From Leptolyngbya sp. FACHB-321 (GTDB lineage Bacteria; Cyanobacteriota; Cyanobacteriia; Leptolyngbyales; Leptolyngbyaceae): a stretch of DNA of 39,154 nt. Each line of letters opens with the position of its first letter. Positions within the stretch are counted from its first letter, which is position 1. This document shows, one piece after another, positions 4,754 to 19,807 of this stretch. The DNA lies in contig NZ_JACJPI010000057.1 in the NCBI RefSeq assembly GCF_014695975.1, forward strand, positions 1-39,154, given 5' to 3'. The notes beneath the pieces are model-generated. The model worked only from the letters and a program-made list of their open reading frames with translations, ran no database searches and had not been told where the DNA came from. The position numbers were made by a program, and so were the translations under genes.

Positions 4754-5236
4754 TTATGTATTGCGGGGTTTCCCTAATGCCACCCGATTAAGCTCAAGGA
4801 TGGGGCAGAACATACTGGCTTGCTGTGGAGTCAAATGCTGTTTGACCACTTGCTGCATCACTTCGTAGGTGGCATTGCAGCTTTTTTCAGCGCCAAAGGC
4901 TTTCATAATAGTCTGAAACCACAAGAGAAACCGTTCGCGCAAGGTTTCAGGATCATCCATTAGCATGGCGATCGCAGAATAGCGGAGTACCCGCACGGTA
5001 TCGCGCTTCCATTTTGCACTTACGTCTTCCTTACCGCTGTGGAAGAGCATGGGGTCGAGCGATCGCATTTTTGCTTCTACCTGTTGCACGATCGCACTTT
5101 CTACCAACTGAAGCGTTTGATAGGTCTGCAACCGCAGGCTAAAGGACTGGACATAAGCATCGACAAAGGCTAGTTCTTCATCGCTGGCAAAGCGACCATC
5201 CGTATCCATACTTAACTTTTCTAACTGGCTCAACAT
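4754..5236 (-). CDS. Phycobilisome-family protein lacking the bilin cysteine
   Basis: This 160-residue protein fits the globin-fold phycobilisome family in length and pattern. Its central segment WKRDTVRVLRYSAIAMLMDD lines up with the chromophore-binding helix of allophycocyanin and phycocyanin, where the usual sequence is C-x-R-D followed by a Y/R-rich helix. Here the position of the bilin-attaching cysteine is tryptophan 76, while the R-D pair is kept. The C-terminal part (NATYEVMQQVVKQHL) also fits. Cysteines at 120 and 144 lie outside the usual attachment site. It is probably a chromophore-free paralogue, perhaps with a structural, assembly or regulatory role. No other phycobilisome gene is nearby. 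Confidence 0.75.
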   Translation of the reverse strand: MLSQLEKLSMDTDGRFASDEELAFVDAYVQSFSLRLQTYQTLQLVESAIVQQVEAKMRSLDPMLFHSGKEDVSAKWKRDTVRVLRYSAIAMLMDDPETLRERFLLWFQTIMKAFGAEKSCNATYEVMQQVVKQHLTPQQASMFCPILELNRVALGKPRNT

Positions 5237-7080: not shown

Positions 7081-8457
7081 TTACTGCCATCCAGGAACCC
7101 AGGATGTTCCAGCAAGAGGTAACCGCGCCATTGCAGCGGCTTCAACGGTAAGGGCAACTAGATCTTCGCGCTCTAGATGGTGGACGTTTTGTTTACCGCA
7201 AGCACGGGCGATCGTGGTCAATTCCATATTCAACGTTTTGAGGTAGTTTTGCACCCGACGCGCACCGACTTCTGGTTCTAGCCGTTTTTCCAGAATAGCG
7301 TCCTGCGTGGTGACACCCACGGGGCACTTTCCAGTATGGCAATGGTGGCAGTAACCAGGAGCCGTGTTGATCGCCGCATAATCTTCCACTGCTGAGTGGT
7401 GTTCACCCTGTTGGATGTAGGTTTCACTATTGCAGCCTAATGCAATGAGAATGCCTTGCCCGATCGATACTGCATCCGCGCCCATCGCAATTGCTTTAGC
7501 CACATCAGCTCCGGTACGAATGCCACCAGACACAATGAGTTGCACCTTACCTTTCATATTCAGATCTTCGAGAGCATCGACTGCCTGACGCACGGCTGCC
7601 AGCGTGGGAATGCCCACGTGTTCGATAAAAACAGTTTGGGTTGCTGCCGTTCCGCCCTGCATTCCATCAACGACGATCACATCGGCACCGGCATGAACCG
7701 CAAGTTTGACATCATTGAACGTGCGTGAGGCTCCTACTTTCACGTAGATAGGCTTTTCCCAATCGGTGAGTTCTCGTAACTCCTGAATTTTAATGGTGAG
7801 GTCATCGGGACCTGTCCAGTCGGGGTGACGGCAGGCGGAGCGCTGATCCACCCCTTCAGGTAAGGTTCGCATTTCCGCGACTCGTGGATTGATTTTTTGC
7901 CCCAGCAGCATGCCGCCACCACCGGGTTTTGCGCCCTGCCCAATGACAATTTCGATCGCGTCTGCTTTTCGCACATCATCGGGATTAAACCCATAACGGG
8001 ACGGTAAGCATTGATAGATTAGGGTTTTGGATGACAGCCGTTCTTCGGGAGTCATGCCACCATCACCAGTCGTCGTCGAAGTGCCAACAGCCGTTGCCGC
8101 AAGCCCCAGTGCTTCTTTGACGTTGGCAGATAGGGAGCCAAAACTCATGCCGGCGATCGTGATGGGAATCTCTAACTCAATGGGTTTTGTGGCATATCGA
8201 GTCCCCAAAATGGTTTTGGTCGTACATTTCTCCCGATAGCCTTCTAGCGGATAGCGCGAGAGGGATGATCCCAAAAACATTAGATCATCAAAGTGAGGCA
8301 GCCGACGCTTGGCACCTAACCCACGGATTTCATAAAGACCATGTGCCGCTGCATTTTGAATGTAGCTAATCATGCGGCTGTCATAACCCCATGAAGCCTC
8401 ACGAGAGATAGGGTGATGTGATTGAGACGGATCAGCTTGAGAGTGAGGCATGTTCAT
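7081..8457 (-). CDS. mgsC: N-methylglutamate synthase subunit C (FMN-binding glutamate synthase domain)
   Basis: This 458-residue protein matches the FMN- and iron-sulfur-containing synthase domain of glutamate synthase as a stand-alone subunit (MgsC, also called GlxD). Visible are the glycine-rich loop GQGAKPGGGGML (173-184), VDGMQGGTAA (263-272), the phosphate-binding SGGIRTG (310-316) and cysteines 370, 373 and 378 in CHHCHTGKCPVGV. These cysteines fit the iron-sulfur site of the family. In NMG synthase this subunit forms N-methylglutamate from 2-oxoglutarate and the methylamine released from gamma-glutamylmethylamide. It begins two bases after the mgsB stop, so it is translationally linked. 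It is the last gene of the cluster. An ordinary GltB is much longer and fused. Confidence 0.85.
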   Translation of the reverse strand: MNMPHSQADPSQSHHPISREASWGYDSRMISYIQNAAAHGLYEIRGLGAKRRLPHFDDLMFLGSSLSRYPLEGYREKCTTKTILGTRYATKPIELEIPITIAGMSFGSLSANVKEALGLAATAVGTSTTTGDGGMTPEERLSSKTLIYQCLPSRYGFNPDDVRKADAIEIVIGQGAKPGGGGMLLGQKINPRVAEMRTLPEGVDQRSACRHPDWTGPDDLTIKIQELRELTDWEKPIYVKVGASRTFNDVKLAVHAGADVIVVDGMQGGTAATQTVFIEHVGIPTLAAVRQAVDALEDLNMKGKVQLIVSGGIRTGADVAKAIAMGADAVSIGQGILIALGCNSETYIQQGEHHSAVEDYAAINTAPGYCHHCHTGKCPVGVTTQDAILEKRLEPEVGARRVQNYLKTLNMELTTIARACGKQNVHHLEREDLVALTVEAAAMARLPLAGTSWVPGWQ

Positions 8458-8459
8458 TG

Positions 8460-9140
8460 TTAATACTCCTGATTGACATCTGCGTTCCAGTGGTAAAGCT
8501 GCTTGGCAGATGCAATGCGTTTAAATTCCTTCGGATCCTGAGAGAAACCTGCTTTGGCGAGGAGTTCGCCGACAGCTTCGTAGTCAGCATGAGTCATGGG
8601 TTCCATCTGGGCATCGGCACCGAGCGATTTGATGGTGCCGCGCACGTAGATGATGGCTTCATAGAGAGAATCGCCGAGGGCATCACCGGCATTGCCGCAA
8701 ATCACGATGCGTCCAGCTTGTGCCATGAAGGCAGAGAAACTGCCTACACTGCCACCCACCACAATATCAGCTCCTTTGAGGGAAATTCCACACCGTAAGC
8801 TGGCATCACCATCGATAACGAGTAAGCCACCCTGAGCAGAAGCGCCAGCGGAAACGGAGGCAAAGCCCTTGACGTGGACTCGTCCAGACATCATGTTTTC
8901 GGCAACACCGGGACCGACATTGCCGAGGATGGTGACGTTTGCTAGTTTGTTCATGCCAGCCGCGTAGTAGCCTGCATGTCCTGCAATTTCGACTTCCACA
9001 GGCGCATCTAAACCCACCGCAATGTTATGAGCACCGTCGGGATTGAGAATGCGGATGGTTTGCCCGTTCAGTGGTTGATGGAGGAAGCGGTTGACTTCGC
9101 GCAGGGGCGTTTGGGCAAGGTCGAAGGTTACACCGTCCAT
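8460..9140 (-). CDS. mgsB: N-methylglutamate synthase subunit B (GXGXG domain)
   Basis: This 226-residue protein corresponds to the GXGXG beta-helix domain found at the C-terminus of glutamate synthase, here as a separate subunit (MgsB/GlxC). The repeating turns are visible: NVGPGVAENMMSGRVHVKG, GGLLVIDGDASLRCGISLKG, and GRIVICGNAGDALGDSLYEA. Its role in the complex is structural and in coupling the amidotransferase to the synthase site. The start overlaps the end of mgsA by 13 bases, which indicates translational coupling and one transcription unit. The small C-terminal helical extension ends in NADVNQEY. Confidence 0.85.
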   Translation of the reverse strand: MDGVTFDLAQTPLREVNRFLHQPLNGQTIRILNPDGAHNIAVGLDAPVEVEIAGHAGYYAAGMNKLANVTILGNVGPGVAENMMSGRVHVKGFASVSAGASAQGGLLVIDGDASLRCGISLKGADIVVGGSVGSFSAFMAQAGRIVICGNAGDALGDSLYEAIIYVRGTIKSLGADAQMEPMTHADYEAVGELLAKAGFSQDPKEFKRIASAKQLYHWNADVNQEY

Positions 9141-10036
9141 ACGTACATTTCCTCTGGTGCAGGTTCGTAGATGTGGGCGTGATTGATGTTGGGGAGATGG
9201 GCGAGCGATCGAAATTCGGAGGCGATCGCCACGTAATCATCCGTTTCCGCTACTACGGCGGGTTTGCAGGCAAAGGCATCGCGCACCAGCGCTAATTTAT
9301 CGGCGGTGCCCATGAGAAAGGTATAGAAACCATCGAGCGCTTCAAACCCTTTTTGGATGGCAGCTTTCAAGTCATCCCCTTCTTGCATACGCCATTCTAA
9401 AAAGCGACAGGCAGCTTCGGTGTCGTTGTCGGTTTCAAAGTGAATGCCGTGATGTTCAAGCTTACGGCGAATTTCGTAGGGATTGGAAAGGGAGCCGTTG
9501 TGAACTAGGCAGAAGTCCTCGCCAGCGGTGAAGGGGTGGGCGTGGGCAGGTGTAACTGCTGATTCGGTTGCCATGCGAGTATGTCCCACCAGATGGGAAC
9601 CTTGCAGACCTTTGAACTGGTAGCGATCGACAATGCTCGTTGGACTTCCAGCATCCTTGTAAAGGTCGATCGCTCGTCCGGTAGACAAGAGATGGATTTG
9701 TGGATAGTTGTCTTGTAGCCATTGCTTCACCGCATTGGTCGCCAGATTAGCGGTTAGCACTGCTTGATTTTCGTGAATTTGAAGGTCGGGCGTCGCGTTG
9801 AAATGGGCTTGAAACGCCTGTGACAGTTCTGACCAATTAAAACTGCCACTCGTATGAATACTGCCAGAATAGAGGCTATATTTACGCTGGTTATCTGGTA
9901 GCGCTTCGGTGAAAACGGCAAGTCCAGCGGAATCGGGTCCGCGTTGGCTCATACCGATAAGCATGGGCACCATCAGTTCACCGAGAGACGATCGCATTGA
10001 TGGATTTTTGATGAGTAGTCCGACGATGCCACACAT
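9128..10036 (-). CDS. mgsA: N-methylglutamate synthase subunit A (class II glutamine amidotransferase)
   Basis: This 302-residue protein is a class II (Ntn-type) glutamine amidotransferase. The nucleophile is Cys2 in MCGIVGLL. Other conserved parts are QRGPDSAGLAVF (30s), the HTRMATESAVTPAHAHPF stretch, LVHNGSLSNPYEIR and the DNDTEA segment. In NMG synthase this subunit hydrolyses gamma-glutamylmethylamide and passes methylamine, instead of ammonia, to the synthase site. No clear Shine-Dalgarno sequence precedes the ATG. It is separated from gmaS upstream by a 600-bp region carrying an antiparallel broken gene, so it may have its own promoter. GlxB is the rhizobial name for the same family. 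Confidence 0.85.
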   Translation of the reverse strand: MCGIVGLLIKNPSMRSSLGELMVPMLIGMSQRGPDSAGLAVFTEALPDNQRKYSLYSGSIHTSGSFNWSELSQAFQAHFNATPDLQIHENQAVLTANLATNAVKQWLQDNYPQIHLLSTGRAIDLYKDAGSPTSIVDRYQFKGLQGSHLVGHTRMATESAVTPAHAHPFTAGEDFCLVHNGSLSNPYEIRRKLEHHGIHFETDNDTEAACRFLEWRMQEGDDLKAAIQKGFEALDGFYTFLMGTADKLALVRDAFACKPAVVAETDDYVAIASEFRSLAHLPNINHAHIYEPAPEEMYVWTV

Positions 10037-10114
10037 AGGGGGGAAATTTTTGAGTTGGGAGAGTGGTCATTAGCTAGTAATTTGTTGAACAGCTACCAGC
10101 TTAGGAATCCGAGT

Positions 10115-10530
10115 ATGAGTTATGAATTGTTTGTTTTCGATTCCGCTGTTTCACCGATAAAGTACGACGAGTTCCTATCTTGGTTTTGTGAACAAACTGA
10201 ATGGGAAAAGTCTCACAGCTATGACGATCCGGAGGTCTTGAGTGCCGCTCTTCGGGCATGGTTTTTGGACATAATAGTTGATTTTCCAGCCATGAACGGA
10301 GCATACGCAAATAACGACCTAGCAGACGACGAAGTGGCTGTAACAGACTACACCTAGGAAGCACTCTCATCTATGCTGTATTCGCCTGGTCAAAGAGGCA
10401 GGAGGCGTATGAAGCTACTTTCCGCCTTGCAGCAAAGCATCAATTAGGCTTTTTTGATGTAAGTTCCGAAACAAGTAAAGTGTGGCTACCAGACTCGAAT
10501 GGAAATCTCATTCTTGCTCACTCCAACTAA
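10115..10530 (+). pseudogene. Frameshifted conserved hypothetical gene inside the methylamine cluster
   Basis: From ATG 10115 the frame reads MSYELFVFDSAVSPIKYDEF and continues to VTDYT, then hits a TAG at 10355-10357. Re-reading one base back, the sequence continues as a convincing protein: GSTLIYAVFAWSKRQEAYEA, then TFRLAAKHQLGFFDVSSETS, ending at the TAA at 10528-10530. A single missing base near 10353 explains the break. The whole resembles a small uncharacterised bacterial family of about 135-140 residues beginning MSYELFVFD. It runs opposite to the surrounding operon, between gmaS and mgsA. It is either a recent pseudogene or a sequencing error. Confidence 0.7.
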
Positions 10531-10639
10531 TAACTGTACTTTAATTCATCGTCTAACAAGACTGATGGGTTAAAACCAAGTCTGTTTATCGTAGGTTGTC
10601 TAGGGCTTTCTCCTAAATACTGACTGCCAGCAACTGTCG

Positions 10640-11968
10640 CTAGAAAAACTCCAAGTAGCGTTGGACTTCCCATTCCGAGACGTGGCGCATGTATTCGACC
10701 CATTCCATCCGTTTGAGGTTGATGAATTCGGTAGCGAGAGGACCGAGAGCATCGGTGATAACGGGATCAGCTTCGAGAGCGTCGGTCGCTTCCTTTAAGC
10801 TCTGCGGTAGGGTTTGAATGCCTTTATCCTTGAGGTCGGCTTCGGAAAGGTCGTAGAGGTTAATGTTGTATGGATCGCCCGGATCGAGTTCTTTTTCGAT
10901 GCCATCAAGCCCAGCGGCGATCGCGACAGCAGCGGCCAAATAGGGGTTGCAGGAACCATCCGCCAGGCGAAATTCGAGTCGTCCACCGGGAATGCGTACC
11001 ATACTGGAGCGGTTGTTGTCGCCATAGGTGATGTAGGCAGGTGCCCAAGTTGCGCCACTGAGTGCGCGTCCCACAACCAGTCGCTTATAGGAATTGATGG
11101 AAGGGGCACAGATAGCGGTCAGTGCTGGTGCATGAGCCAACAAGCCACCGAGGAAGTAATATGCCAGTTTGGATAGCCCCAGATGGCGAGGATCGCTGTC
11201 ATCGGCAAAGAGATTGGCATTGCCATCAGACATGGACATATGCATGTGCATTCCAGTGCCCGTACGGTTCGCAAACGGTTTGGGCATGAAGGTGGCAATT
11301 AATCCCATCTCTTTGGCGATCTCAGATGCTGCCATCTTGAAGAAGATGTAGCGATCGGCAGAGGTCAAGCAATCGGTGTAGGTGTAATTGATTTCAAACT
11401 GCCCATTTGCATCTTCATGGTCAATTTGATAGACGTCAAAATCTGCGATTTGCAGGCTTTCCACCAGCTTTTCAATAAACGTGCGACTGCGGGACAGTCC
11501 TTTGTAGTCGTAGCAAGGTTTCTCTAGCGTATCGGTGGGATCAGCAGGAGCAATGCGACCTTGAGCATCTTTTTGCAGCAAGCCAAATTCAGGTTCCAGT
11601 CCCGTATAGAACGTCCACCCCTTTTGCTTCAGCCGTTCCAACTGCTGCATCAAGACAAAGCGAGAATCATAGGGATAGGGCTGACCATCCACATGTCCAA
11701 CGCAAACCATACGCGCAAAACCTGGCATCCAGGGCACGAGCGTTAAGGTTGATGGATCACCGATCGCCATGAAGTCGTGGCTATTCGGCTGCTGCGCTAA
11801 ACCCCAAACGGCAAACCCTGCAAACCCTGCACCTGGATCAAGAATGTCATCAAAATGGGATGCAGGCACAGCTTTCGTCTTGGCGGTACCGTGCATATCC
11901 ACAAACTGCGCTAGGACAAATTTAACGTGGTTGTCTGCTAAGAATTTCTTTGCCGTTTCTGGTGTCAT
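10640..11968 (-). CDS. gmaS: Gamma-glutamylmethylamide synthetase (glutamine synthetase type III/GlnT-like)
   Basis: This 442-residue protein has the full glutamine synthetase catalytic set: EPEFG (125-129), [12 protein letters not shown] (183-194), GTGMHMHMS (237-245), NSYKRL (292-297) and [10 protein letters not shown] (318-327). Length and motif spelling fit the GlnT/GmaS group, not the housekeeping type I enzyme: it lacks the C-terminal adenylylation-site region of GlnA and is shorter. GmaS makes gamma-glutamylmethylamide from glutamate, methylamine and ATP. Its place between mgdD and mgsA is what selects GmaS over an ammonia-using enzyme. A ribosome-binding site (AGGAA) lies seven bases before the ATG. 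Confidence 0.85.
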
Positions 11969-12054
11969 GGATGGTTCCTGCGGTTAGTTATTGTTGGCCG
12001 TTAGTTGTATAGCCCTTTGGGCATTCAAGAAAAGTTGTTAGAAGGAGTCAGGGA

Positions 12055-12200
12055 ACAGGGCAGGGGAAGCAAGGGGAGCAGGGGGAGCAAGAGATTTGAG
12101 ACACTTGGATTAACTCAGAACTTTTAGCCTTCATCCTCCATCCGTTAGCCTTTCTTCCAACTCAAAACTCAGAACTTTTAGCCTTTAGCCTTTAGCCTTT
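12055..12200. repeat. Low-complexity repeats between mgdD and gmaS
   Basis: This stretch holds a purine-rich run (12055-12095), an 18-bp direct repeat CTCAGAACTTTTAGCCTT at 12114-12131 and 12168-12185, and three perfect tandem copies of TTTAGCC at 12177-12197. The heptamer is the complement of the repeat at 2738-2787. It separates mgdD from gmaS, and I see no promoter in it that I would trust. Confidence 0.65.
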
Positions 12201-12842
12201 CATTCCTTCCTCCACTCCAACCACTCCACCACCTATCTCTGCCACGATCTCGCTTAGCGTTTGCCATAGGTACGCTCCAAACGTCCCATCACACCAAAGG
12301 CGGTAGAACGGCTGTCCGTTGCGATCGCCCGGAATGATGGTGACAGCAACACCGACCATCGATGTGAGAATGACGGGACGTTCCAGCAATGATAAAGCGC
12401 GAAAGTTAACGCTACAGGTTTGCAGTAGTACTTCGTTGACGGCGGAGCCACAAAGGATGATCGCCGCATCTTGACGCAAGACGGGATAAACCTTGGCGGG
12501 TGGTTGCTGGCAGGCTGCGGCTAGATTAATCGCAAAGTGGCTTTGCAGACTATCTTCGATAAAGAATTCTGTCAAACCAAGACGCGCAACGATGCCACCA
12601 TCGGAGAGAAGATTCCAGGTATTTGGGCGATCGGGTGTTGTGATGCCTTGGCTTGAGAGCCAATCGGCTGCGTTGGCTCCTTTGACACCAAAGCGAGTGA
12701 GGCAAGAGACATCAGCGATGCCTAAATAGGTGGCGATCACAGCTTCTTCAGGGACAGCCACTAGAGACGGCATTCCATTCAGATTCCGCCATGATCCATC
12801 AATGGATTGCAGTCGATCGTGCATGGGGCTGAAGCGAATCAT
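12192..12842 (-). CDS. mgdD: N-methylglutamate dehydrogenase subunit D (sarcosine oxidase gamma-like)
   Basis: This 216-residue protein corresponds to the gamma subunit of heterotetrameric sarcosine oxidase and NMG dehydrogenase. It has the aminomethyltransferase-like fold pattern (LGIADVSCLTRFGVKGANAA; ADWLSSQGI) and the middle segment containing RLGLTEFFIED. The subunit helps close the complex around the folate-binding part of the alpha subunit. Its ATG overlaps the mgdC stop by four bases (ATGA), so translation is coupled. The start at 12842 gives a short unconserved leader before the conserved domain. It is followed by repeats and then gmaS. Confidence 0.8.
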   Translation of the reverse strand: MIRFSPMHDRLQSIDGSWRNLNGMPSLVAVPEEAVIATYLGIADVSCLTRFGVKGANAADWLSSQGITTPDRPNTWNLLSDGGIVARLGLTEFFIEDSLQSHFAINLAAACQQPPAKVYPVLRQDAAIILCGSAVNEVLLQTCSVNFRALSLLERPVILTSMVGVAVTIIPGDRNGQPFYRLWCDGTFGAYLWQTLSEIVAEIGGGVVGVEEGMKG

Positions 12843-15800
12843 ACGGAAACCTCCTCACGTTTTGGCGTAGGGTCTTTCTGTCGAAGGTTTTCAGGGTCGT
12901 AGAAGGGCGTGGGATTGATAGTTGCAGTGACAAGAGAACCATCGGAGCGGCGAATGGAAATGCGATCGCCGACCGCTGCCAGTTCTGGTTTCACGTATGC
13001 CAAGCCAATAAAGCGGTTTAAAGCAGGACTGAAGGCAATGCTGGTGATGCGTCCGGCAATGTCATTGCGATCGATCACCAGATGACATTCTTGGGGTGGT
13101 AGCCCTTGAAATGGCTCCAGCATGAAGCCTACTAATGTATGTTTCACCGGACGTTTTGCCATACTTTGCAGACTGCGTTGACCAACGAAGAATGGTTTGT
13201 CTAGCTTAACTGCCCATCCCAAACCAGCTTCTCGCGGAGTGGTCAAACCGTCAGTATCCTGCCCGACAATCAGGTGTCCTTTCTCTAATCGCAAGAGCCG
13301 CTGTGCTTCCACACCAAAGGGAGTAAGGCCATATTCAGCACCTGCTTCCATCAGAGCATCCCAAAGGGCGATCGCGGAGTCTGCCGCGACATGAATCTCG
13401 TAACCCCATTCGCCAACAAACCCAACGCGCAGTAGCAGAGCTGGAATATTAGCAACGGTTGCCTGCCGTACGCCAAGGTAGGGGAAGGTAGCACTGGATA
13501 AATCTAGATCGGTGAGTTTGGCGAGCACTTCATGGGCGTAGGGACCAGCCAAATTGATGGCCGATCGTGCTCCTGTTGTGTTCACAATGCCACAATCTAA
13601 GCGCCACATTGTATTCAGTCGCGATAGCTCACGGTAGATGTTTGCTACGCCAGAGGTAGTGGTGGTGAAGTAGAAATGCTCGGCTCCAAAGCGGGCGATT
13701 ACGCCATCATCAATAATGACGCCTGTTTCGTCGAGCATCAGGGCGTAGCGGGACATCCCCACTTTCAGGTTGGTGTAACGTCCGGTGTACACTCGCTCTA
13801 GAAACTCAGCCGCATCAGGGCCACGGATTTCTAGCTTGCCTAATGTGCCGACGTCGATGATGCCAACCTGTGTGCGAACGGCGATCGCCTCTGCACGAAT
13901 ACAGTCCTCACGACTCTTTTCCGATTGGGTGTAGTATTCGGGTCGTCGCCAGTTGCCTGCCAGCATAAATTTGGCGTTTAAGGCGGCATGGCGACTATGC
14001 AAAGGCGTGTAGCGCTCTGGTGTAAAGCTACGTCCTGCAAGATGAGAGAGGGGCACGGGATGGAAAAATGGTCGGGCGGTTGTGGTGCCGACTTCACCGG
14101 GAGTTTTGCCTGTGATGCGTGCCAGAATTCGTAGGGCGTTCATGTTGGAATGTTTGCCCTGGCTGGGTCCCATGCCTACGGTGGTATAGCGTTTGAGGAG
14201 TTCAATGTTATCGAAGCCTTCTTGGGCGGCGTTGTAGAAATCTTTGAGTTGCAGGTCTTCATCGAAATCGACGAAGTTTTTGCTGTGGGGATGGGGGACG
14301 ATCGGCCAGGGATGGGAAACACCCTCAACTGTTCTCCCAGACTCAACTGTTCTCCCAGAAAAGTTGTCGTATATGAGTATCTGGGCTTCGTTTGTAGTTC
14401 TGACCAGGGGACTTCCCCCCGCCCCCCCGCCATGTGGGGTCCTAACTCCCTCACACCCCCCGAAAGGTGTTGTTTGTTCCGGTTTTAGTCCTTCGTAGAT
14501 CGATCTTTGGGTATGGGAGTTTTCAAACCCTAGGTAAGCGGCAGCGGTCATTCCAGCCCGATTGCCATCCGATATTTTCTGCTCAAACTCGAAGATGCCG
14601 TTGACTCGACCGCAGGCAAAAACACCTTCAGGTAAAACGTCTGGGACAAATTGCTGCAAGTGGTCATCAAAGCGCAGTTTAGCACCTGCTTGATAGAGCA
14701 AGTTTGCTGTCGGTGCCCAACCTACACTCACGACAATGCCATCACAGGCGATCGTGCGTTTTTGCTCCAATTGCGGTTCATTACCCTCGAAGGGACAGAT
14801 GACGGCACTGGAGATACCATCTCCTGCTGGATTTCGCTTCGCTTCGTAAACGCAATACCCTGTATGGATGGGAATGCCCTGTGATCGCACTGCTTGCGTG
14901 AGATCTGTTGCCACAGGAGTAGAGCGCAGATCGACGATCGCCATCACGGCAATTCCATGCGCTGCCAAATCCAGGGCGGCTCGATATCCATCACTATTCG
15001 CTACTAGAACTACAGCCCGTTGCATGGGCTTGACGGCATAGCGATAAATGAGCCGTTGTGCCGCCGATGCCAGCATTACACCTGGCAAATCGTTGTTGTG
15101 GAAGACGGCTGGCTGCTCGTAGGCACCGCTGGCAACAATGACAGCTTTTGCACGCATTTTGGAGAGCCGATCGCGATCGACTAGGGGAATCCAGTGATCG
15201 GCGTAATAGCCTGCTGCTTGAGTGCCGGTATATAGCCGGATGTTGGGATGGGAGGCGATCGCATCCATTAGTGCAGCCGTCTTCTCCGCACAAGATGAAT
15301 TTCCACCAAGTTGATAACGACCCGATCCACCAGCCTGTGCGTTCTCATCAACAATGACCACATCTGCACCCGTGTTTGCCGCTGACAGGGCTGCTGACAG
15401 CCCAGACACCCCAGCACCGATCACCAACACATCACAAAAGTCGTAGCGTTTGGGAGTGCGAATGTGAGGTGTGGATGGATCGCCTTCGCCCAACCCCGTC
15501 ATGCGGCGAATAAGACGCTCCCACATGGGAAAGAGCTTTTTATCTAAGAAGGCTTTGTAGTAGAAGCCAACGGGCAGGAAGGGTGAAAAGAAGTTGAGCA
15601 CGCTGGCACGATCTCCCATCACACCACCCACTGTATTAATGGCTGTGAGCGACATTCCGGTTTCTAACGGTGTGACATCTGCTCGGACATTTAACACCTG
15701 TCCGGATTGCATCAACGTATTCACATCATGATTTGCAAAGCTCAATAGCCCACGAGGTCGATGGTATTTGAAGCTACGTCCTAAGACTCGCTGTCCCGCT

Positions 15801-15925
15801 GCCCACAACGCGCTGCTGATGGTATCGCCTGCGTAGCCTTGAAAGGTCATGCCTTCAAACGTGAAGTCGATCGGCTGGGTGCGATCGATCCATTCACCCG
15901 GTATTGGTGGCAGTCGTTGACTCAT
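12839..15925 (-). CDS. mgdC: N-methylglutamate dehydrogenase subunit C (sarcosine oxidase alpha-like)
   Basis: This 1028-residue protein has the alpha-subunit layout: an N-terminal ferredoxin-like domain without cluster cysteines (residues 15-95, GYAGDTISSALWAAGQRVLG), a nucleotide-binding oxidoreductase domain (VLVIGAGVSGLSAAL at 166-180; second part near 300-450), and a C-terminal aminomethyltransferase (GcvT-like) domain from about 625. The GcvT part would bind tetrahydrofolate and capture the methyl carbon as methylene-H4F. Residues 477-538 look like an extra insertion with low-complexity sequence and a repeated SGRTVE/GRTVE unit; relatives are usually about 950-1000 residues. Both ends overlap neighbouring genes by ATGA. 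The NMG rather than sarcosine assignment rests on the adjacent gmaS and mgs genes. Confidence 0.85.
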   Translation of the reverse strand: MSQRLPPIPGEWIDRTQPIDFTFEGMTFQGYAGDTISSALWAAGQRVLGRSFKYHRPRGLLSFANHDVNTLMQSGQVLNVRADVTPLETGMSLTAINTVGGVMGDRASVLNFFSPFLPVGFYYKAFLDKKLFPMWERLIRRMTGLGEGDPSTPHIRTPKRYDFCDVLVIGAGVSGLSAALSAANTGADVVIVDENAQAGGSGRYQLGGNSSCAEKTAALMDAIASHPNIRLYTGTQAAGYYADHWIPLVDRDRLSKMRAKAVIVASGAYEQPAVFHNNDLPGVMLASAAQRLIYRYAVKPMQRAVVLVANSDGYRAALDLAAHGIAVMAIVDLRSTPVATDLTQAVRSQGIPIHTGYCVYEAKRNPAGDGISSAVICPFEGNEPQLEQKRTIACDGIVVSVGWAPTANLLYQAGAKLRFDDHLQQFVPDVLPEGVFACGRVNGIFEFEQKISDGNRAGMTAAAYLGFENSHTQRSIYEGLKPEQTTPFGGCEGVRTPHGGGAGGSPLVRTTNEAQILIYDNFSGRTVESGRTVEGVSHPWPIVPHPHSKNFVDFDEDLQLKDFYNAAQEGFDNIELLKRYTTVGMGPSQGKHSNMNALRILARITGKTPGEVGTTTARPFFHPVPLSHLAGRSFTPERYTPLHSRHAALNAKFMLAGNWRRPEYYTQSEKSREDCIRAEAIAVRTQVGIIDVGTLGKLEIRGPDAAEFLERVYTGRYTNLKVGMSRYALMLDETGVIIDDGVIARFGAEHFYFTTTTSGVANIYRELSRLNTMWRLDCGIVNTTGARSAINLAGPYAHEVLAKLTDLDLSSATFPYLGVRQATVANIPALLLRVGFVGEWGYEIHVAADSAIALWDALMEAGAEYGLTPFGVEAQRLLRLEKGHLIVGQDTDGLTTPREAGLGWAVKLDKPFFVGQRSLQSMAKRPVKHTLVGFMLEPFQGLPPQECHLVIDRNDIAGRITSIAFSPALNRFIGLAYVKPELAAVGDRISIRRSDGSLVTATINPTPFYDPENLRQKDPTPKREEVSV
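14312..14497 (-). repeat. In-frame low-complexity insertion in mgdC
   Basis: This segment of about 186 bp keeps the mgdC frame and encodes residues 477-538. It contains a tandem direct repeat of 17-18 bp (unit CTGGGAGAACAGTTGAG on the coding strand) and a very C/G-skewed run near 14409-14430. The encoded stretch (GGCEGVRTPHGGGAGGSPL) has no place in the sarcosine-oxidase alpha fold and falls in the linker before the C-terminal half. Its style resembles dispersed intergenic repeats that have entered a gene. Confidence 0.6.
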
Positions 15926-16182
15926 ACGACCGCCTCACCAACTAAATAGGTGCGTAAAATTTCATCGGTGATGGTATTGCGATCAACCAAAAACCAGGTA
16001 TTGCTCGGCGTGTGACACCACCATTCTTGCTTCACGCCTGCTGCACCGTTGCGGTTAAACACATAATCTGCCCACACCGCATCGTCCGTTGCTTGTGGAT
16101 CGGGCATGGGTCGAACTTCACCACCATAGACAAATTCGGAAATCGGTCGAGCACCGTTAATTGGACACACCATTAATTTCAT
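15922..16182 (-). CDS. mgdB: N-methylglutamate dehydrogenase subunit B (sarcosine oxidase delta-like)
   Basis: This 86-residue protein has the delta-subunit pattern: an N-terminal CPINGARPISEFVYGGEV, the WADYVFNRNGAAG segment, then WWCHTPSNTWFLVDRNTITDE. In classical sarcosine oxidase delta this subunit binds zinc through C-x2-C near the start and an H-x3-C pair near residue 60. Here Cys6 is kept, but the second cysteine is Asn and the last pair is not in register, so zinc binding is doubtful. A ribosome-binding site (AAGGA) precedes the ATG. The stop overlaps the mgdC start (ATGA), tying the two subunits together. Confidence 0.8.
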   Translation of the reverse strand: MKLMVCPINGARPISEFVYGGEVRPMPDPQATDDAVWADYVFNRNGAAGVKQEWWCHTPSNTWFLVDRNTITDEILRTYLVGEAVV

Positions 16183-16219
16183 CGTTCCTTCCCATCCACA
16201 CAGTCCATTTTTCTCAGCG

Positions 16220-16549
16220 CTAAAAGGTTCCTAGTAATGGCAGGACTTTCTTCTCAAGAAGAGCGACCAACGCTGGTTCCATATACTCATACTCATCACG
16301 AATATCCAAACAAACGATCCGTTTACCGTTGAGATAGGGCTGAAACTTTTTTGAGAGCTTACTGCGGTGTCCGTTCTCCATCACAAAGATGATATCTGCC
16401 CATTGGATTGCTTCGTTTGATAGCGGTGTGTCAGCGTCCCGGTCGATTCCTGCCGATGCAACCTCTAAACCCTCGTAGCGCGAAAAAAGCTCCTCGGCGG
16501 TTGGGCTACGCAGTCGATTTTTGCCGCATACAAAGAGCAATTTCTTCAT
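16220..16549 (-). CDS. Low-molecular-weight protein tyrosine phosphatase-like protein
   Basis: This protein of 109 residues starts MKKLLFVCGKNRLRSPTAEE. The phosphate loop C-x5-R-S is present as CGKNRLRS at residues 8-15, and a D-E-Y segment (CLDIRDEYEYMEPALV) sits where the general-acid aspartate loop is found. It is shorter than the standard LMW-PTP of about 150 residues, matching a compact subfamily. I chose the ATG at 16549 over one 15 bases upstream because the P-loop then sits at the usual distance from the N-terminus. It lies between mgdA and mgdB in the same direction, with no known role in methylamine metabolism. Confidence 0.75.
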   Translation of the reverse strand: MKKLLFVCGKNRLRSPTAEELFSRYEGLEVASAGIDRDADTPLSNEAIQWADIIFVMENGHRSKLSKKFQPYLNGKRIVCLDIRDEYEYMEPALVALLEKKVLPLLGTF

Positions 16550-16579
16550 AAGTTCCATCAACATCGAGATACCTCACCC

Positions 16580-16882
16580 CTACCGCTTACCACTAAAGAC
16601 TTCTGTAAAATGCTCGACGGTGGGAAACGGGTCATAAAAGTGATGGAGAAGTTGTTTCCATTTTTGATAAGTGGGCGATTCCCGAAAGCCAACAGTATGG
16701 TCTTCCAAGGTCTGCCATCGCACTAACAGTAAATATTTTCCCGGCACTTCTAAACATTGATGGAGTTCATGGGATTCATATCCAGGCATAGAGGAAATTA
16801 AGTTGGAAGCCTGCCTGAACGAAGTTTCAAACGCTTGCTCCAAACCACTTTTAACCATAAACATCGCCACCTCAAGCACCAT
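16580..16882 (-). CDS. Antibiotic biosynthesis monooxygenase (ABM)-domain protein
   Basis: This 100-residue protein has the dimeric alpha/beta-barrel pattern of ABM-domain proteins: VLEVAMFMVKSGLEQAFETS at the start, GYESHELHQCLEVPGKYLLL in the middle and SPTYQKWKQLLHHFYDPFPT near the end, including the conserved tryptophan and histidine positions. Members include small monooxygenases, heme-degrading enzymes and stress proteins, so function is open. It lies 54 bp after mgdA and 15 bp or more before the phosphatase-like gene, all in one direction. With that gene it interrupts what is normally a continuous mgdAB pair. Confidence 0.75.
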   Translation of the reverse strand: MVLEVAMFMVKSGLEQAFETSFRQASNLISSMPGYESHELHQCLEVPGKYLLLVRWQTLEDHTVGFRESPTYQKWKQLLHHFYDPFPTVEHFTEVFSGKR

Positions 16883-16936
16883 AGCCTTTATCCTTAATAT
16901 TTTCCGTCCTCTACCCTCTACCCTCCGCCTTCTGCC

Positions 16937-18178
16937 CTAATGTCCTACCGACGCTGCACCCTTCTCACCAACCAGGGCATAGTTGGCGAAGCGATCGAGG
17001 GAAAAGTCTTGAATCAGCTCATGGTTGCGATCGTTCGCTACGGTGTAGGCCATCGTTTTCCCTGCGACAGGTGTGGCTTTGAAACCCCAGGTGCCCCAAC
17101 CTGAATCGAGGTAGAAACCGTCGATCGAGGTTTTGCCCATAATGGGTGCAAAGTCTGGAGTCATGTCTGCCATCCCTGCCCATTGCCGCACTACCTTAAC
17201 GTGGGACAGAAAGGGAAAAAGCTCCAGCATATGGGCCGCTAAGCCTTCCACAAAATCAAGGGTCGATCGGGTGGAATGGAGTTCATACGGATCAAGTGAG
17301 GCACCCATTACCAGTTCTCCTCGCGCCGTTTGGCTTACATACACATGCAAACTACCGGAGACAATGATGGGATCGAGCCATGCTTTCATGGGTTCACTAA
17401 CCATTGCTTGGAGGGGATGGATATAAAGGGGCGATCGCAATCCCACCATATCCAGCAATCGTGGCGTTGATCCAGCCACTGCACAAAGGACTCGCGATGT
17501 GGAAATCTTGCCCCGCGAAGTTTCTACGCCTGTCACTCGACCTGCTTTGGTTGTAATACCCAACACTTCCGTTTGTTGATGGATTTCTACGCCTCGCTGG
17601 TCTGCCCCACGACCGTAGCCCCACGCCACCGCATCATGACGGGCAATGCTTCCCGGTGCATGGTAAAGAGCGCCGAGGATGGGAGTGTGTCCGCCACAGG
17701 TAATGTCTATATGGGGACAGGCAGCTTGCACCGCATCGGCATCTACCAGTTCGCTGTCGATGCTAAAGTGCTTGTTGACTTCCGATCGCCAGCGCATGGT
17801 TCGTACTGAAGCATCGGTATGTGCCAGCGTGAAGTGTCCCCGGGTGGAGTAGAACAGATTCAGGTCAAAATCCTGCGACAAGTCTTGCCACAAACGTACA
17901 GATTCGTCGTAGAACTTTACGCCTTCGGGCGTAAGGTAGTTAGAACGGATGATCGTCGTGTTGCGTCCCGTATTGCCGCCACCCATGTAGCCTTTCTCCA
18001 GCACCGCGACGTTGTGCATTCCATGATCGCGAGCCAGATAGTAGGCGGCTGCGAGTCCATGACCACCCCCACCAATGATCACCGCATCGTAGCTCGACTT
18101 CAGGCGATCGGGTTGTCGAAACATCCGCGGTTCGGGATGCTTCTTTGATAAACCAAATTTCAGGAGACGTAATGGCAT
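16937..18178 (-). CDS. mgdA: N-methylglutamate dehydrogenase subunit A (sarcosine oxidase beta-like)
   Basis: This 413-residue flavoprotein belongs to the DAO family and matches the beta subunit of heterotetrameric sarcosine oxidase. The dinucleotide-binding fingerprint is YDAVIIGGGGHGLAAAYYLA (residues 30-49). The GGGNTGRNTTIIRSNY segment follows, which in the family covers the covalent flavin region. The C-terminal part has MADMTPDFAPIMG and SGWGTWGFKATPVAG. This subunit oxidises the secondary amine, here most likely N-methylglutamate. A good ribosome-binding site (AGGAGAACGAC before ATG) is present, and purU ends nine bases upstream, so both are probably in one transcript. Confidence 0.85.
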   Translation of the reverse strand: MPLRLLKFGLSKKHPEPRMFRQPDRLKSSYDAVIIGGGGHGLAAAYYLARDHGMHNVAVLEKGYMGGGNTGRNTTIIRSNYLTPEGVKFYDESVRLWQDLSQDFDLNLFYSTRGHFTLAHTDASVRTMRWRSEVNKHFSIDSELVDADAVQAACPHIDITCGGHTPILGALYHAPGSIARHDAVAWGYGRGADQRGVEIHQQTEVLGITTKAGRVTGVETSRGKISTSRVLCAVAGSTPRLLDMVGLRSPLYIHPLQAMVSEPMKAWLDPIIVSGSLHVYVSQTARGELVMGASLDPYELHSTRSTLDFVEGLAAHMLELFPFLSHVKVVRQWAGMADMTPDFAPIMGKTSIDGFYLDSGWGTWGFKATPVAGKTMAYTVANDRNHELIQDFSLDRFANYALVGEKGAASVGH

Positions 18179-18187
18179 GTCGTTCTC

Positions 18188-19048
18188 CTAACGAAACACA
18201 ACGGTTTTGTTGCCATGCACCAGCACCCGATCCTCGACGTGATAGCGCAGCCCTCGTGCCAGCACCGCTTTTTCAATATCTTTGCCATAGCGCACTAGGT
18301 CGTCCACTGAATCGGAATGGTCAATGCGAATCACATCTTGCTCAATGATAGGACCTGCATCCAGATCAGCTGTCACGTAGTGGCACGTTGCACCCGTGAG
18401 TTTCACGCCTCGTTCATACGCCTGATGGTAGGGTTTGGCACCCACAAACGACGGCAAAAAGGAATGATGGATGTTAATAATGCGTCCAGAGTAGCGATCG
18501 CACATCTCCGGTGATAGCACCTGCATGTACCGCGCCAAAATCATCACATCTCCCTTTGCGTTATCAAACAAATGCATCACCTTATCAAAGGCATCTGCTT
18601 TTGTGTCGGGCATAACGGGCACATAATAGAAGGGAATTTCGTGCCATTCCACAAATTTGCGAAACACATCATGATTAGAAATGACGCAGGGAATTTCCAC
18701 ATCCAGTTCGCCACTTTGCCAGCGGGACAGCAAGTCATACAAGCAGTGCTCTAGTTTAGAAACCAGAATCACTACGCGCTTTTTCTGTGCAGAATCGGTG
18801 ATGTTCCATTCCATTTGAAAGGATTCTGCGATCGCTGCAAACTGCTCCCGAAAGACCTCAATGCCGAAGGGTAAAGACTCAGCAAGAATTTCTTGTCGCA
18901 TGAAGAACCGCTGTGCCACACGATCAGCATGATGCTGCGCTTCCACAATCCACCCCTGATGGTTGGCAACAAAGGTGCTCACAGCAGCCACAATACCCAC
19001 GCGATCAGGGCACGAAAGGGTGAGGGTGTAGTGTCTTGCAGAGGACAT
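18188..19048 (-). CDS. purU: Formyltetrahydrofolate deformylase
   Basis: This 286-residue protein has an N-terminal ACT domain (HYTLTLSCPDRVGIVAAVST) and a C-terminal formyl-H4F hydrolase domain. The catalytic region is INIHHSFLPSF at 191-201, and the aspartate of the transformylase triad fits D230 in TADLDAGPIIEQ. The enzyme hydrolyses 10-formyl-H4F to formate and free H4F. In this cluster it would regenerate H4F after the NMG dehydrogenase loads the methyl carbon onto folate, so carbon leaves as formate. It is the first gene of the minus-strand run, behind the promoter at 19084-19112. FolD, needed between methylene- and formyl-H4F, is not in the window. Confidence 0.9.
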   Translation of the reverse strand: MSSARHYTLTLSCPDRVGIVAAVSTFVANHQGWIVEAQHHADRVAQRFFMRQEILAESLPFGIEVFREQFAAIAESFQMEWNITDSAQKKRVVILVSKLEHCLYDLLSRWQSGELDVEIPCVISNHDVFRKFVEWHEIPFYYVPVMPDTKADAFDKVMHLFDNAKGDVMILARYMQVLSPEMCDRYSGRIINIHHSFLPSFVGAKPYHQAYERGVKLTGATCHYVTADLDAGPIIEQDVIRIDHSDSVDDLVRYGKDIEKAVLARGLRYHVEDRVLVHGNKTVVFR

Positions 19049-19079
19049 CGGATTCCCGTGGCGTTAGGAAACTATCAGT

Positions 19080-19112
19080 GACTATCATGCAGTTTTGATT
19101 CATGTATGTCAA
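19080..19112 (-). promoter_or_regulatory. Promoter of purU-mgd with overlapping dyad
   Basis: On the minus strand, a perfect TTGACA (19107-19112) is followed after exactly 17 bases by CATGAT (19084-19089, four of six matches to the -10 consensus). An imperfect dyad, GAC-N3-CAT...ATG-N3-GTC, covers 19080-19110 and so overlaps both boxes. This is a good candidate operator for the divergently encoded XRE-cupin regulator. On the plus strand the regulator has a likely -10 TATTAT at 19126-19131 with a poor -35 lying in the dyad. Confidence 0.55.
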
Positions 19113-19183
19113 CTAATTTTCCTGCTATTATGCAAAAGAGTTGTAAAAGTGATGTCTACAGACCGCAAATCGTGAGGTGAACG

Positions 19184-19807
19184 ATGGCAGAGACGACGAG
19201 CAACGGTGCACAAAGTGTCACCGATCATGCTCTAGAGCGGTACATCGGCAATACTATTCGTGAGTTGCGGCAGAAACACGGGCTGACGATCGCCGAAGTC
19301 GCTGAACAGGTGGGCATTTCGCGGGGAATGCTATCCAAAATTGAAAACGCACAAACCGCTACAAGTTTGGAAACCTTGGCTAAACTTGCTAGTGCTCTGG
19401 GCGTGTCATTAGCGACGCTGTTTCGCAACTACAACATTCCTGCCGGAAGTGCCCAACTGGTCAAACGGGATGAAGGGATGGAAGTGGTGCGCCGAGGGAC
19501 AAAGCGCGGTCATACCTATCATCTACTGGCTTACGATCAGGGTCCAACAAAACTCTTTGAGCCATTTCTCATTACAATGGATGACGCCTCAGAAGTGTTT
19601 CCGACCTTTGAGCATCCTGGCACCGAGTTTATTTATATGCTGGAAGGCGCAATCGAGTATCGTCATGGGCAATCAACCTATCGGCTCAATCCGGGCGACT
19701 CGCTCACCTTTCGCGGCGACATTCCCCACGGTCCCGAAAAGCTGGTTGCCTTGCCAATTCGCTTTCTTGCGATTATCTACTATTCCACGCTGCCCACGAT
19801 GGAATAA
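19184..19807 (+). CDS. XRE-family regulator with C-terminal cupin domain
   Basis: This 207-residue protein has an N-terminal helix-turn-helix of the XRE/Cro type at about residues 20-76 (LRQKHGLTIAEVAEQVGISR; GMLSKIENAQTATSLETLAK). The C-terminal cupin_2 domain at about 130-200 contains HPGTEFIYMLEGAIEY and LNPGDSLTFRGDIPHGPE. The cupin domain would sense a small molecule or metal-bound ligand. The gene is divergent from purU with 135 bp between starts, the usual position for a local regulator of the methylamine cluster. Direction of control (repression or activation) and the ligand are not known; methylamine or gamma-glutamylmethylamide are guesses. Confidence 0.85.
   Translation: MAETTSNGAQSVTDHALERYIGNTIRELRQKHGLTIAEVAEQVGISRGMLSKIENAQTATSLETLAKLASALGVSLATLFRNYNIPAGSAQLVKRDEGMEVVRRGTKRGHTYHLLAYDQGPTKLFEPFLITMDDASEVFPTFEHPGTEFIYMLEGAIEYRHGQSTYRLNPGDSLTFRGDIPHGPEKLVALPIRFLAIIYYSTLPTME

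Follow-up and report, generated by a model that had tools for sequence, protein, structure and literature searches.

Genes for an apparently complete N-methylglutamate pathway in the cyanobacterium Leptolyngbya sp. FACHB-321, and their variants in related genomes

The closest described counterparts of the genes considered here belong to the N-methylglutamate (NMG) pathway of proteobacteria and methylotrophs. In Methyloversatilis, mutants in mgsC and mgdD lose the use of methylamine, according to an excerpt of PMC5023235. For gamma-glutamylmethylamide synthetase (GmaS), the residues of RhGmaS that serve ATP or methylamine binding or catalysis include Asp177, Glu186 and Arg312, and Ala48 and Trp300 are two replacements that set GmaS apart from glutamine synthetase (GS), as stated in an extract of PMC7948447. 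We have analysed a stretch of 39,154 nucleotides (the window; contig NZ_JACJPI010000057.1, positions 1 to 39,154) from Leptolyngbya sp. FACHB-321, whose genome of 6.7 Mb is 97% complete and 0.4% contaminated. On the minus strand of the window, positions 7081-19048 carry homologues of GmaS, MgsABC, MgdABCD and PurU together with two extra small genes, and a regulator with helix-turn-helix (HTH) and cupin domains is encoded divergently. From the sequence evidence we propose, with a probability of roughly 0.85, that this cluster is a complete NMG pathway which, to judge by the trees, reached cyanobacteria in a single acquisition from a proteobacterial-type source and has been retained for nitrogen. 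The transfer of methylamine nitrogen to glutamate is its most likely function. The pathway genes and their predicted products are as follows.

7081-8457, minus strand: mgsC, FMN/Glu_synthase-domain subunit of N-methylglutamate synthase (PF01645, 320 bits)
8460-9140, minus strand: mgsB, GXGXG-domain subunit (PF01493, 38 bits; synteny)
9128-10036, minus strand: mgsA, class II glutamine amidotransferase-type subunit (PF13522; starts MCGIVG)
10640-11968, minus strand: gmaS, gamma-glutamylmethylamide synthetase (TIGR03105, 637 bits; cut-off 470)
12192-12842, minus strand: mgdD, divergent gamma-like subunit of N-methylglutamate dehydrogenase (TIGR01375 soxG, 25 bits; cut-off 144; synteny)
12839-15925, minus strand: mgdC, large subunit with FAD/NAD-type and GcvT-like folate domains (TIGR01372 soxA-like, 843 bits)
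15922-16182, minus strand: mgdB, SoxD-like delta subunit of 86 aa (PF04267 SoxD, 100 bits)
16937-18178, minus strand: mgdA, flavoprotein subunit of N-methylglutamate dehydrogenase (TIGR01373 soxB-like, 478 bits)
18188-19048, minus strand: purU, 10-formyltetrahydrofolate (10-formyl-H4F) deformylase (TIGR00655, 373 bits)

Each of the eight subunits is an uninterrupted, full-length open reading frame (ORF). A preliminary description made from the letters alone had claimed all eight, together with purU and a divergent regulator, as an apparently complete pathway, and had likened the layout to known mgd-gmaS-mgs loci. Both claims are borne out: the genes have family or domain matches, the trees and the kept GmaS residues described below support the assignment, and the order regulator / mgdABCD-gmaS-mgsABC is also found in proteobacterial loci.

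The best solved relative of the window GmaS is PDB 9qur, named 'glutamate--methylamine ligase' (712 bits), with PDB 7cql at 370 bits. The window protein agrees with RhGmaS at 15 of 16 checked positions, the exception being W189, which is replaced by Y as in 9qur. The same 15 positions and Y189 are kept in all 14 GmaS proteins examined from other cyanobacterial clusters (the L058 protein, being too short, was not used), and a further sample, which has some members in common with this one, shows the same in 13 of 13. The window protein carries A48 and W300 (RhGmaS numbering) in place of the ammonium-binding Asp and the flap Glu of GS; the host's two other full-length GS-family proteins have several of the 16 positions changed. 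A GmaS tree of 78 rows, thinned beforehand so that it represents 34 of the 65 non-cyanobacterial loci, along with 22 cyanobacterial proteins from outside the clusters, places 18 cyanobacterial cluster GmaS in one clade (SH-aLRT 99), nested in a proteobacterial and acidobacterial GmaS clade that contains 9qur (support 97). In a careful tree of 69 rows, 14 cluster GmaS also form one clade (100/98), and in the trees GmaS stands apart from the host glutamine synthetases. The first pathway gene thus appears to encode GmaS rather than GS.

A three-subunit NMG synthase, MgsABC, is predicted from homology, synteny, the MgsC tree and residues. In all 15 named cyanobacterial loci, MgsA begins with MCGI(V/I)G, which includes the Cys2 that is expected. 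MgsC, which is 83-96% identical in canonical cyanobacterial clusters that hold mgsC, keeps three cysteines aligned to GOGAT cysteines in 13 of 13 rows, the window included. In MgdA, His181 is aligned to a SoxB histidine and is kept in 14 of 14 rows, again including the window. In the solved enzymes, these cysteines and this histidine hold the iron-sulphur cluster and the flavin.

A four-subunit NMG dehydrogenase, MgdABCD, is likewise predicted, with A, B and C assigned by homology, A and C also by trees, and D by position and a weak soxG match. Both MgdA (478 bits, cut-off 529 for TIGR01373) and MgdC (843 bits, cut-off 1164 for TIGR01372) fall below the sarcosine-oxidase thresholds, a comparison made with the NCBIfam thresholds alone. 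The MgdA tree unites 16 cyanobacterial rows in one clade (support 95), and the MgdC tree (FastTree) does the same for 18 rows including the window (support 100). Cyanobacterial MgdA and MgdC group among gmaS-linked homologues that are mainly proteobacterial, and the window MgdA is separate from two solved (PDB) sarcosine oxidase chains. It should be mentioned that the MgdA tree also contains, on a long branch (2.14, support 80), eight MgdA-like rows of Pseudomonas whose sox-like operon is linked to purU, so that the border between MgdA and sarcosine oxidase is not sharp there. In the Pseudomonas loci L101, L104, L113 and L126, gmaS-mgsABC has as its divergent neighbour a sox-like operon that includes purU, and a second mgdBCD set was not seen there. 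The phylogenies of GmaS, MgsC and MgdC that had been suggested each place the cyanobacterial copies in one clade. Grouping with true sarcosine oxidase and ammonia-specific GS, named beforehand as the contrary outcome, was not seen; GmaS, MgdA and MgdC group with homologues from gmaS loci.

When 84,980 species genomes were scanned with a pattern, 139 relatives were found. The best 80 of these, which were kept, comprise 15 cyanobacterial loci (GmaS 79-96% identical) and 65 others (63-70%). All eight subunits in the order mgdABCD-gmaS-mgsABC are present in 12 of the 15, and three are cut by contig ends; the genera named are Stenomitos, Tildeniella, Lyngbya, Chroococcus, Chlorogloea, Aliterella, Leptolyngbya, Microcoleus, Phormidesmis and Hydrococcus. 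Over the cyanobacterial clusters, GmaS is 75-96% identical to that of the window. MgsC was found in 10 of 42 family genomes (nine at 88-100%, one at 68%) and in at least 4 of 386 evenly drawn phylum genomes (three at 89-100%, own genome included, and one of a second type at 68%), and MgdA in at least 33 of 388 class genomes (32 at 82-100%, one at 52%). For the phylum counts of TIGR03105 and MgsC and the class count of MgdA, at most four candidates were scored per genome, so these counts may be low; we think that the gap between 4/386 and 33/388 reflects the different draws and this limit. Among 22 stretches around MgdA (L199-L220), 15 have all seven mgd and mgs genes and five run off contig ends; of the remaining two, G398 is without mgsC and G420 has mgsC on another contig. 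The cluster also occurs on NZ_CP083583.1 of Kovacikia minuta CCNUW1, a 1.2-Mb record of the plasmid collection; this copy has no gmaS, and a GmaS of another branch (type B, below) is encoded in trans. MgsC homologues (60-90%) sit on 240 plasmid records, 136 of them from Rhizobium, and such genes therefore travel elsewhere. The suggested search of cyanobacterial genomes for the same gene set thus finds that the cluster recurs, with MgdA at 82% or more in at least 32 of 388 class genomes. TIGR03105 was rejected as a marker of the pathway: at least 24 of the 386 phylum genomes match it (E 1e-150), as against at least 4 with MgsC, and the control Synechococcus elongatus is above its cut-off.

HIP1 sites had been taken as a sign of long residence in cyanobacterial DNA. 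Ten sites lie in 7081-19807 (0.5 expected under an order-2 model; 0.79 per kb) and 26 in the rest of the window (0.85 expected under the same model; 0.98 per kb). Eleven other cyanobacterial loci are also rich in HIP1, and five proteobacterial loci are not or little enriched (observed/expected 4/3.6 in L066, 2/1.4 in L087, 0/2.1 in L092, 6/2.5 in L099 and 2/2.3 in L106). The G+C content is 51% in the cluster and 49% in its flanks. The host-like HIP1 density and the presence of the cluster in many cyanobacterial genomes support long residence, as had been thought. The host is identified as a cyanobacterium by a phycobilisome gene at 4754-5236, and the nearest rows in the GmaS tree are Stenomitos and Tildeniella. 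Besides this gene, the neighbours of the cluster include an M23 peptidase, an ABC transporter, an EPSP synthase and two tRNA-Leu. Four congener stretches (L224, L225, L226 and L229) hold the left-flank M23 peptidase, phycobilisome and ABC genes together without the cluster, and in the window's genus the copies of the cluster lie on contigs other than those of the shared left flank. A clean empty site was sought; these four stretches did not yield the sugar transferase of the right-hand flank, so that no empty site can be defined.

Nine cyanobacterial clusters (G060, G394, G417, G437, G451, G491, G530, G545 and G398) are without gmaS, with mgsA directly after mgdD; the gap between these two genes is about 200 bp or less in eight and 509 bp in G398. 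In a TIGR03105 search of 30 chosen genomes, every candidate was scored and the proteins were then sorted by tree. A clade of 10 rows (100/99), here called type B, stands apart from cluster GmaS. Type B is encoded elsewhere in eight of the nine gmaS-less genomes (not in G398) and in none of 18 genomes with cluster gmaS; it is also found in G388 and G005. The 11 further TIGR03105 proteins of the 18 gmaS-holding genomes all fall in another clade, type C. When relatedness is ignored, the association of gmaS loss with type B gives p = 4.1e-6 with genomes as the unit and p = 2.6e-4 with genera as the unit (6 of 7 against 0 of 12; Fisher's exact test in both). This comparison of 27 genomes left out G420 (split gmaS; mgsC on another contig) and G591 (split gmaS), as well as G389, G579, G582, G585 and G392 on account of contig ends; in G392, the cluster gmaS is the only TIGR03105 match. 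Type B keeps all 16 RhGmaS positions in nine of 10 proteins, and one has S48. The GmaS proteins of G427 and G418, added later, fall in type B.

Two genomes depart from this pattern. G398 is gmaS-less and without type B; the genome is 87% complete, the cluster frames are split and no MgsC match is found in it, so this cluster may be decaying. G418 has a type-B GmaS and no MgsC match at E 1e-60 (a draft of 1150 contigs). On the simplest reading of the sequence pattern, GmaS activity is required and can come from cluster GmaS or from type B alike; promiscuity of GS may also stand in for a lost gmaS. The pairing of gmaS loss with type B speaks, indirectly, for a functioning pathway in these cells.

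Type B is also met in a second setting. A divergent cyanobacterial mgsABC, whose products are 36-38% (mgsA), 42-49% (mgsB) and 65-68% (mgsC) identical to those of the window, is found at L147 2934-8511, L222 8370-11441, L274 5883-10610 and L280; in L147 and L274 its neighbour is a type-B GmaS. By genome, type B adjoins the second mgsABC in G388, which belongs to the window's genus and is without canonical MgdA, and in G427; in G005 the two are on different contigs, and G496 has an mgsC of the second kind. An Amt-family gene adjoins type B in G417, G437 and G451; in G427 and G005, such a gene is found at a distance of 1-5 kb from the second mgsABC or from the gmaS that goes with it. A DAO-domain protein or a 23-24% MgdA-like protein is near the second mgsABC or type B in G388 and G005. 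No MgdC or MgdD was recognisable beside the second mgsABC in the three stretches read, one of which has short 32-33% MgdC-like pieces. We give even chances to the fuller account, in which the NMG pathway was kept and remodelled in cyanobacteria: a proteobacterial-type cluster would have entered once, gained purU and a new promoter element, and lost gmaS several times where type B is present in trans (8 of 9 genomes), type B being otherwise the partner of a second, differently assembled methylamine system.

Type C differs from RhGmaS at five positions in 19 of 19 proteins (T48, S175, D188, F189 and N237), and it likely binds another amine because these five positions of the pocket are changed throughout. 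Type-C proteins adjoin creatininase genes in L151 (8173-14921) and L149 (5654-7806), with a DUF1989-GcvT fusion nearby in L151; these loci probably represent a different amine pathway.

The cluster PurU is the only protein over the family cut-off in a search of the whole genome. Its gene lies between the regulator and mgdA in the window, in L050-L053 and in several other genera. In Rhodobacteraceae, the products of folD and purU have been proposed to process tetrahydrofolate-bound methyl groups (excerpt of PMC7574528). Further features of the cluster are listed here.

10037-10639, 603 bp, 44% GC: insert between gmaS and mgsA with an apparent broken ORF on the plus strand
16220-16564, minus strand: low-molecular-weight (LMW) phosphatase-like small protein of 114 aa (PF01451, 28 bits)
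16580-16882, minus strand: antibiotic biosynthesis monooxygenase (ABM)-domain protein of 100 aa (PF03992, 57 bits)
19066-19123, minus strand: promoter/operator candidate with half-site AGGAAAATTA, TTGACA-17-CATGAT and half-site ATAGTTTCCT, the half-site starts being 48 bp apart
19184-19807, plus strand: divergent HTH-cupin regulator (HTH_3 and Cupin_2 domains)

In the gap between purU and the regulator, an inverted repeat flanks the TTGACA-17-CATGAT promoter candidate of the window. Half-sites like AGGAAACTTT and AAAGTTTCCT, 46-49 bp apart around the promoter, are present in 19 of 31 distinct cyanobacterial gaps (at most two mismatches each) and absent as a pair from the other 12; the count is not an independent test because the motif was derived from the same gaps. 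Elsewhere the pair occurs four times in 569 kb, and no pair spaced 20-80 bp apart was found in 31 proteobacterial intergenic gaps. A promoter scan gave two promoter-like matches against 11.4 in shuffles, fewer than by chance, and the element therefore rests on conservation and not on the scan. An Rfam search gave no match. Homologues of the HTH-cupin regulator also stand beside many proteobacterial gmaS or mgd loci, and this protein, which we take to be of the kind labelled 'XRE-cupin', is probably the natural candidate for binding the repeat.

On the minus strand, the order of genes is purU, mgdA, ABM gene, LMW-phosphatase-like gene, mgdB, mgdC, mgdD, gmaS, mgsA, mgsB and mgsC. The LMW-phosphatase-like gene is found in few clusters only, with homologues in L050-L052 and L145. 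The ABM gene is a recurrent member of NMG clusters in several cyanobacterial genera and occupies one of two places, the mgdA-mgdB or the mgdD-gmaS junction; besides the window copy, it is found at L057 1658-1945, L199 3226-3525, L204 5262-5552, L206 1436-1735 and L211 4610-4888. Lone unrelated genes (for a PIN-domain protein, an Mrr endonuclease, a LysE-type translocator or a GNAT protein) stand, depending on the strain, at the mgsB-mgsC or the gmaS-mgsA joint (L050 13328-13762, L053 13401-13859, L145 11165-12043, L060 8260-8895 and L054 11286-11792). The 603-bp insert of the window has no match in the 19 other genomes searched.

In the proposed pathway, methylammonium would enter the cell, whose genome has two Amt genes, and GmaS would join it to glutamate using ATP. 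MgsABC would then pass the methylamino group on to 2-oxoglutarate, so that N-methylglutamate and glutamate are formed, and MgdABCD would oxidise the methyl group onto tetrahydrofolate, leaving glutamate, with the carbon exiting as CH2-H4F. This one-carbon unit may go to biosynthesis, or may be released as formate via FolD, if encoded, and the cluster PurU. The divergent HTH-cupin protein would control the operon through the repeat that flanks the promoter.

Several observations weigh against this reading. Among other cyanobacterial TIGR03105 proteins, 31 of 41 are identical to RhGmaS at all 16 positions, and their loci, over 3-4 kb, show no mgs or mgd gene; residues alone are therefore not proof of GmaS function or of the pathway, and their conservation was dropped as sufficient proof. 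MgdD has a weak soxG match and no Pfam match, is 49-80% identical in the cyanobacterial clusters, and is identified mainly by its position. The clade of 17 cyanobacterial rows in the MgsC tree has a support of 94, just short of the level adopted. The best tree from a concatenation of five proteins shows seven gmaS changes, and branches at the adopted support level force only two; the independent pairs of gmaS and type B on those branches are two, too few for a test. The insert between gmaS and mgsA could weaken their co-transcription. No canonical NtcA site (GTAN8TAC) is present in the purU-regulator gap; the whole window has eight such sites against 3.9 expected, one of them inside mgdC.

The other explanations that we weighed are not mutually exclusive. 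The same enzymes may serve another end than nitrogen nutrition: they may detoxify methylammonium, or let gamma-glutamylmethylamide or N-methylglutamate accumulate. The missing NtcA site would suit such a role, and an excerpt of PMC10794816 describes methylammonium as a substrate of Amt-type carriers that bacterial GS converts to methylglutamine. However, a dehydrogenase with a folate domain stands beside the synthase in 12 of the 15 scan loci and 15 of the 22 further stretches, the rest being mostly cut by contigs, and purU joins it in many. Detoxification or accumulation is less apt because dehydrogenase and purU would serve the release of glutamate and a one-carbon unit, beyond conjugation, and we regard it as unlikely. 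Somewhat less likely again is another substrate, either a different small amine such as ethylamine for GmaS or a different N-methyl amino acid such as sarcosine for the dehydrogenase. The first enzyme is not strictly specific, since GmaS makes theanine from ethylamine (in an extract of PMC7677707), and MgdABC are homologous to sarcosine oxidase subunits. Against this stand the scores of MgdA and MgdC below the sarcosine-oxidase cut-offs, their grouping with gmaS-linked homologues, the name of the closest solved relative of GmaS, and the presence of MgsABC in the same operon.

Decay of the cluster in this strain has a small probability. It would accord with the insert and its apparent broken ORF and with the split frames in other drafts (G398, G420 and G591), one of which, G398, is without any MgsC match, whereas all eight subunits of the window are encoded at full length and keep their cofactor-type and active-site residues. 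The least probable alternative, to which we assign next to no weight, is contamination or a recent passenger without a role, from a proteobacterium. The nearest non-cyanobacterial GmaS, mainly proteobacterial, are 63-70% identical, and the spread is patchy, with MgsC at 89-100% in at least 3 of the 386 phylum genomes, own genome included. This alternative is already contradicted by the contig shared with phycobilisome and other host genes, the host-like HIP1 and GC, and the spread of the cluster. The same cluster is present in records that do not bear the label of a metagenome-assembled genome (Stenomitos frigidus ULC18, Phormidesmis priestleyi ULC007 and Aliterella atlantica CENA595) and on the 1.2-Mb Kovacikia minuta replicon, and the cyanobacterial cluster GmaS have already diverged to 75-96% identity with that of the window.

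A complete NMG pathway kept for nitrogen would matter beyond this strain. Microalgae produce and release methylamines and usually cannot metabolise them, according to the excerpt of PMC7574528 cited above, and in uptake assays methylammonium widely takes the place of ammonium (PMC10794816, in excerpt). If nitrogen is taken from methylamine, these cyanobacteria would compete with methylotrophs, and methylammonium would be no inert tracer in them. Since the clusters are in named strains, the proposal is testable, and the swap of GmaS offers a natural test of which step is required. The hunch that the route is undescribed in cyanobacteria held in the open-access full-text literature: among the matches listed, no account of the NMG pathway in any cyanobacterium was found, most subscription papers being outside this scope. 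The pathway as such is known; the searchable literature yielded no description of it as a complete, long-settled and apparently remodelled pathway of cyanobacteria. New here are the gmaS-less cyanobacterial clusters paired with type-B GmaS elsewhere and the conserved promoter with an inverted repeat.

Compared with known systems, the window has the same eight subunits as the NMG pathway of Methylophilaceae, Methyloversatilis and other proteobacteria or methylotrophs, and the betaproteobacterial loci L092, L094, L099 and L106 share its gene order and a homologous divergent regulator. The cyanobacterial clusters differ from these in their oxygenic-phototroph host and in having purU in the operon (in the window and many other clusters), and the window differs also in the inserted ABM and LMW-phosphatase-like genes. 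RhGmaS (Rhodovulum sp. 12E13, PDB 7cql) and 9qur have the same active-site and methylamine-pocket positions as the window GmaS, which is distant in sequence from 7cql and shares Y189 with 9qur. The host glutamine synthetase (G000 C62, L001; best PF00120 match) belongs to the same superfamily, but is only 29% identical to GmaS (tblastn) and has D at the position of GmaS Ala48. Heterotetrameric sarcosine oxidase (SoxBDAG) has subunits homologous to MgdA, MgdB and MgdC and the same four-gene plan; in contrast to it, the window genes encode an MgdA and an MgdC below the family cut-offs, with MgdA apart from the PDB oxidases, and are linked to gmaS and mgs.

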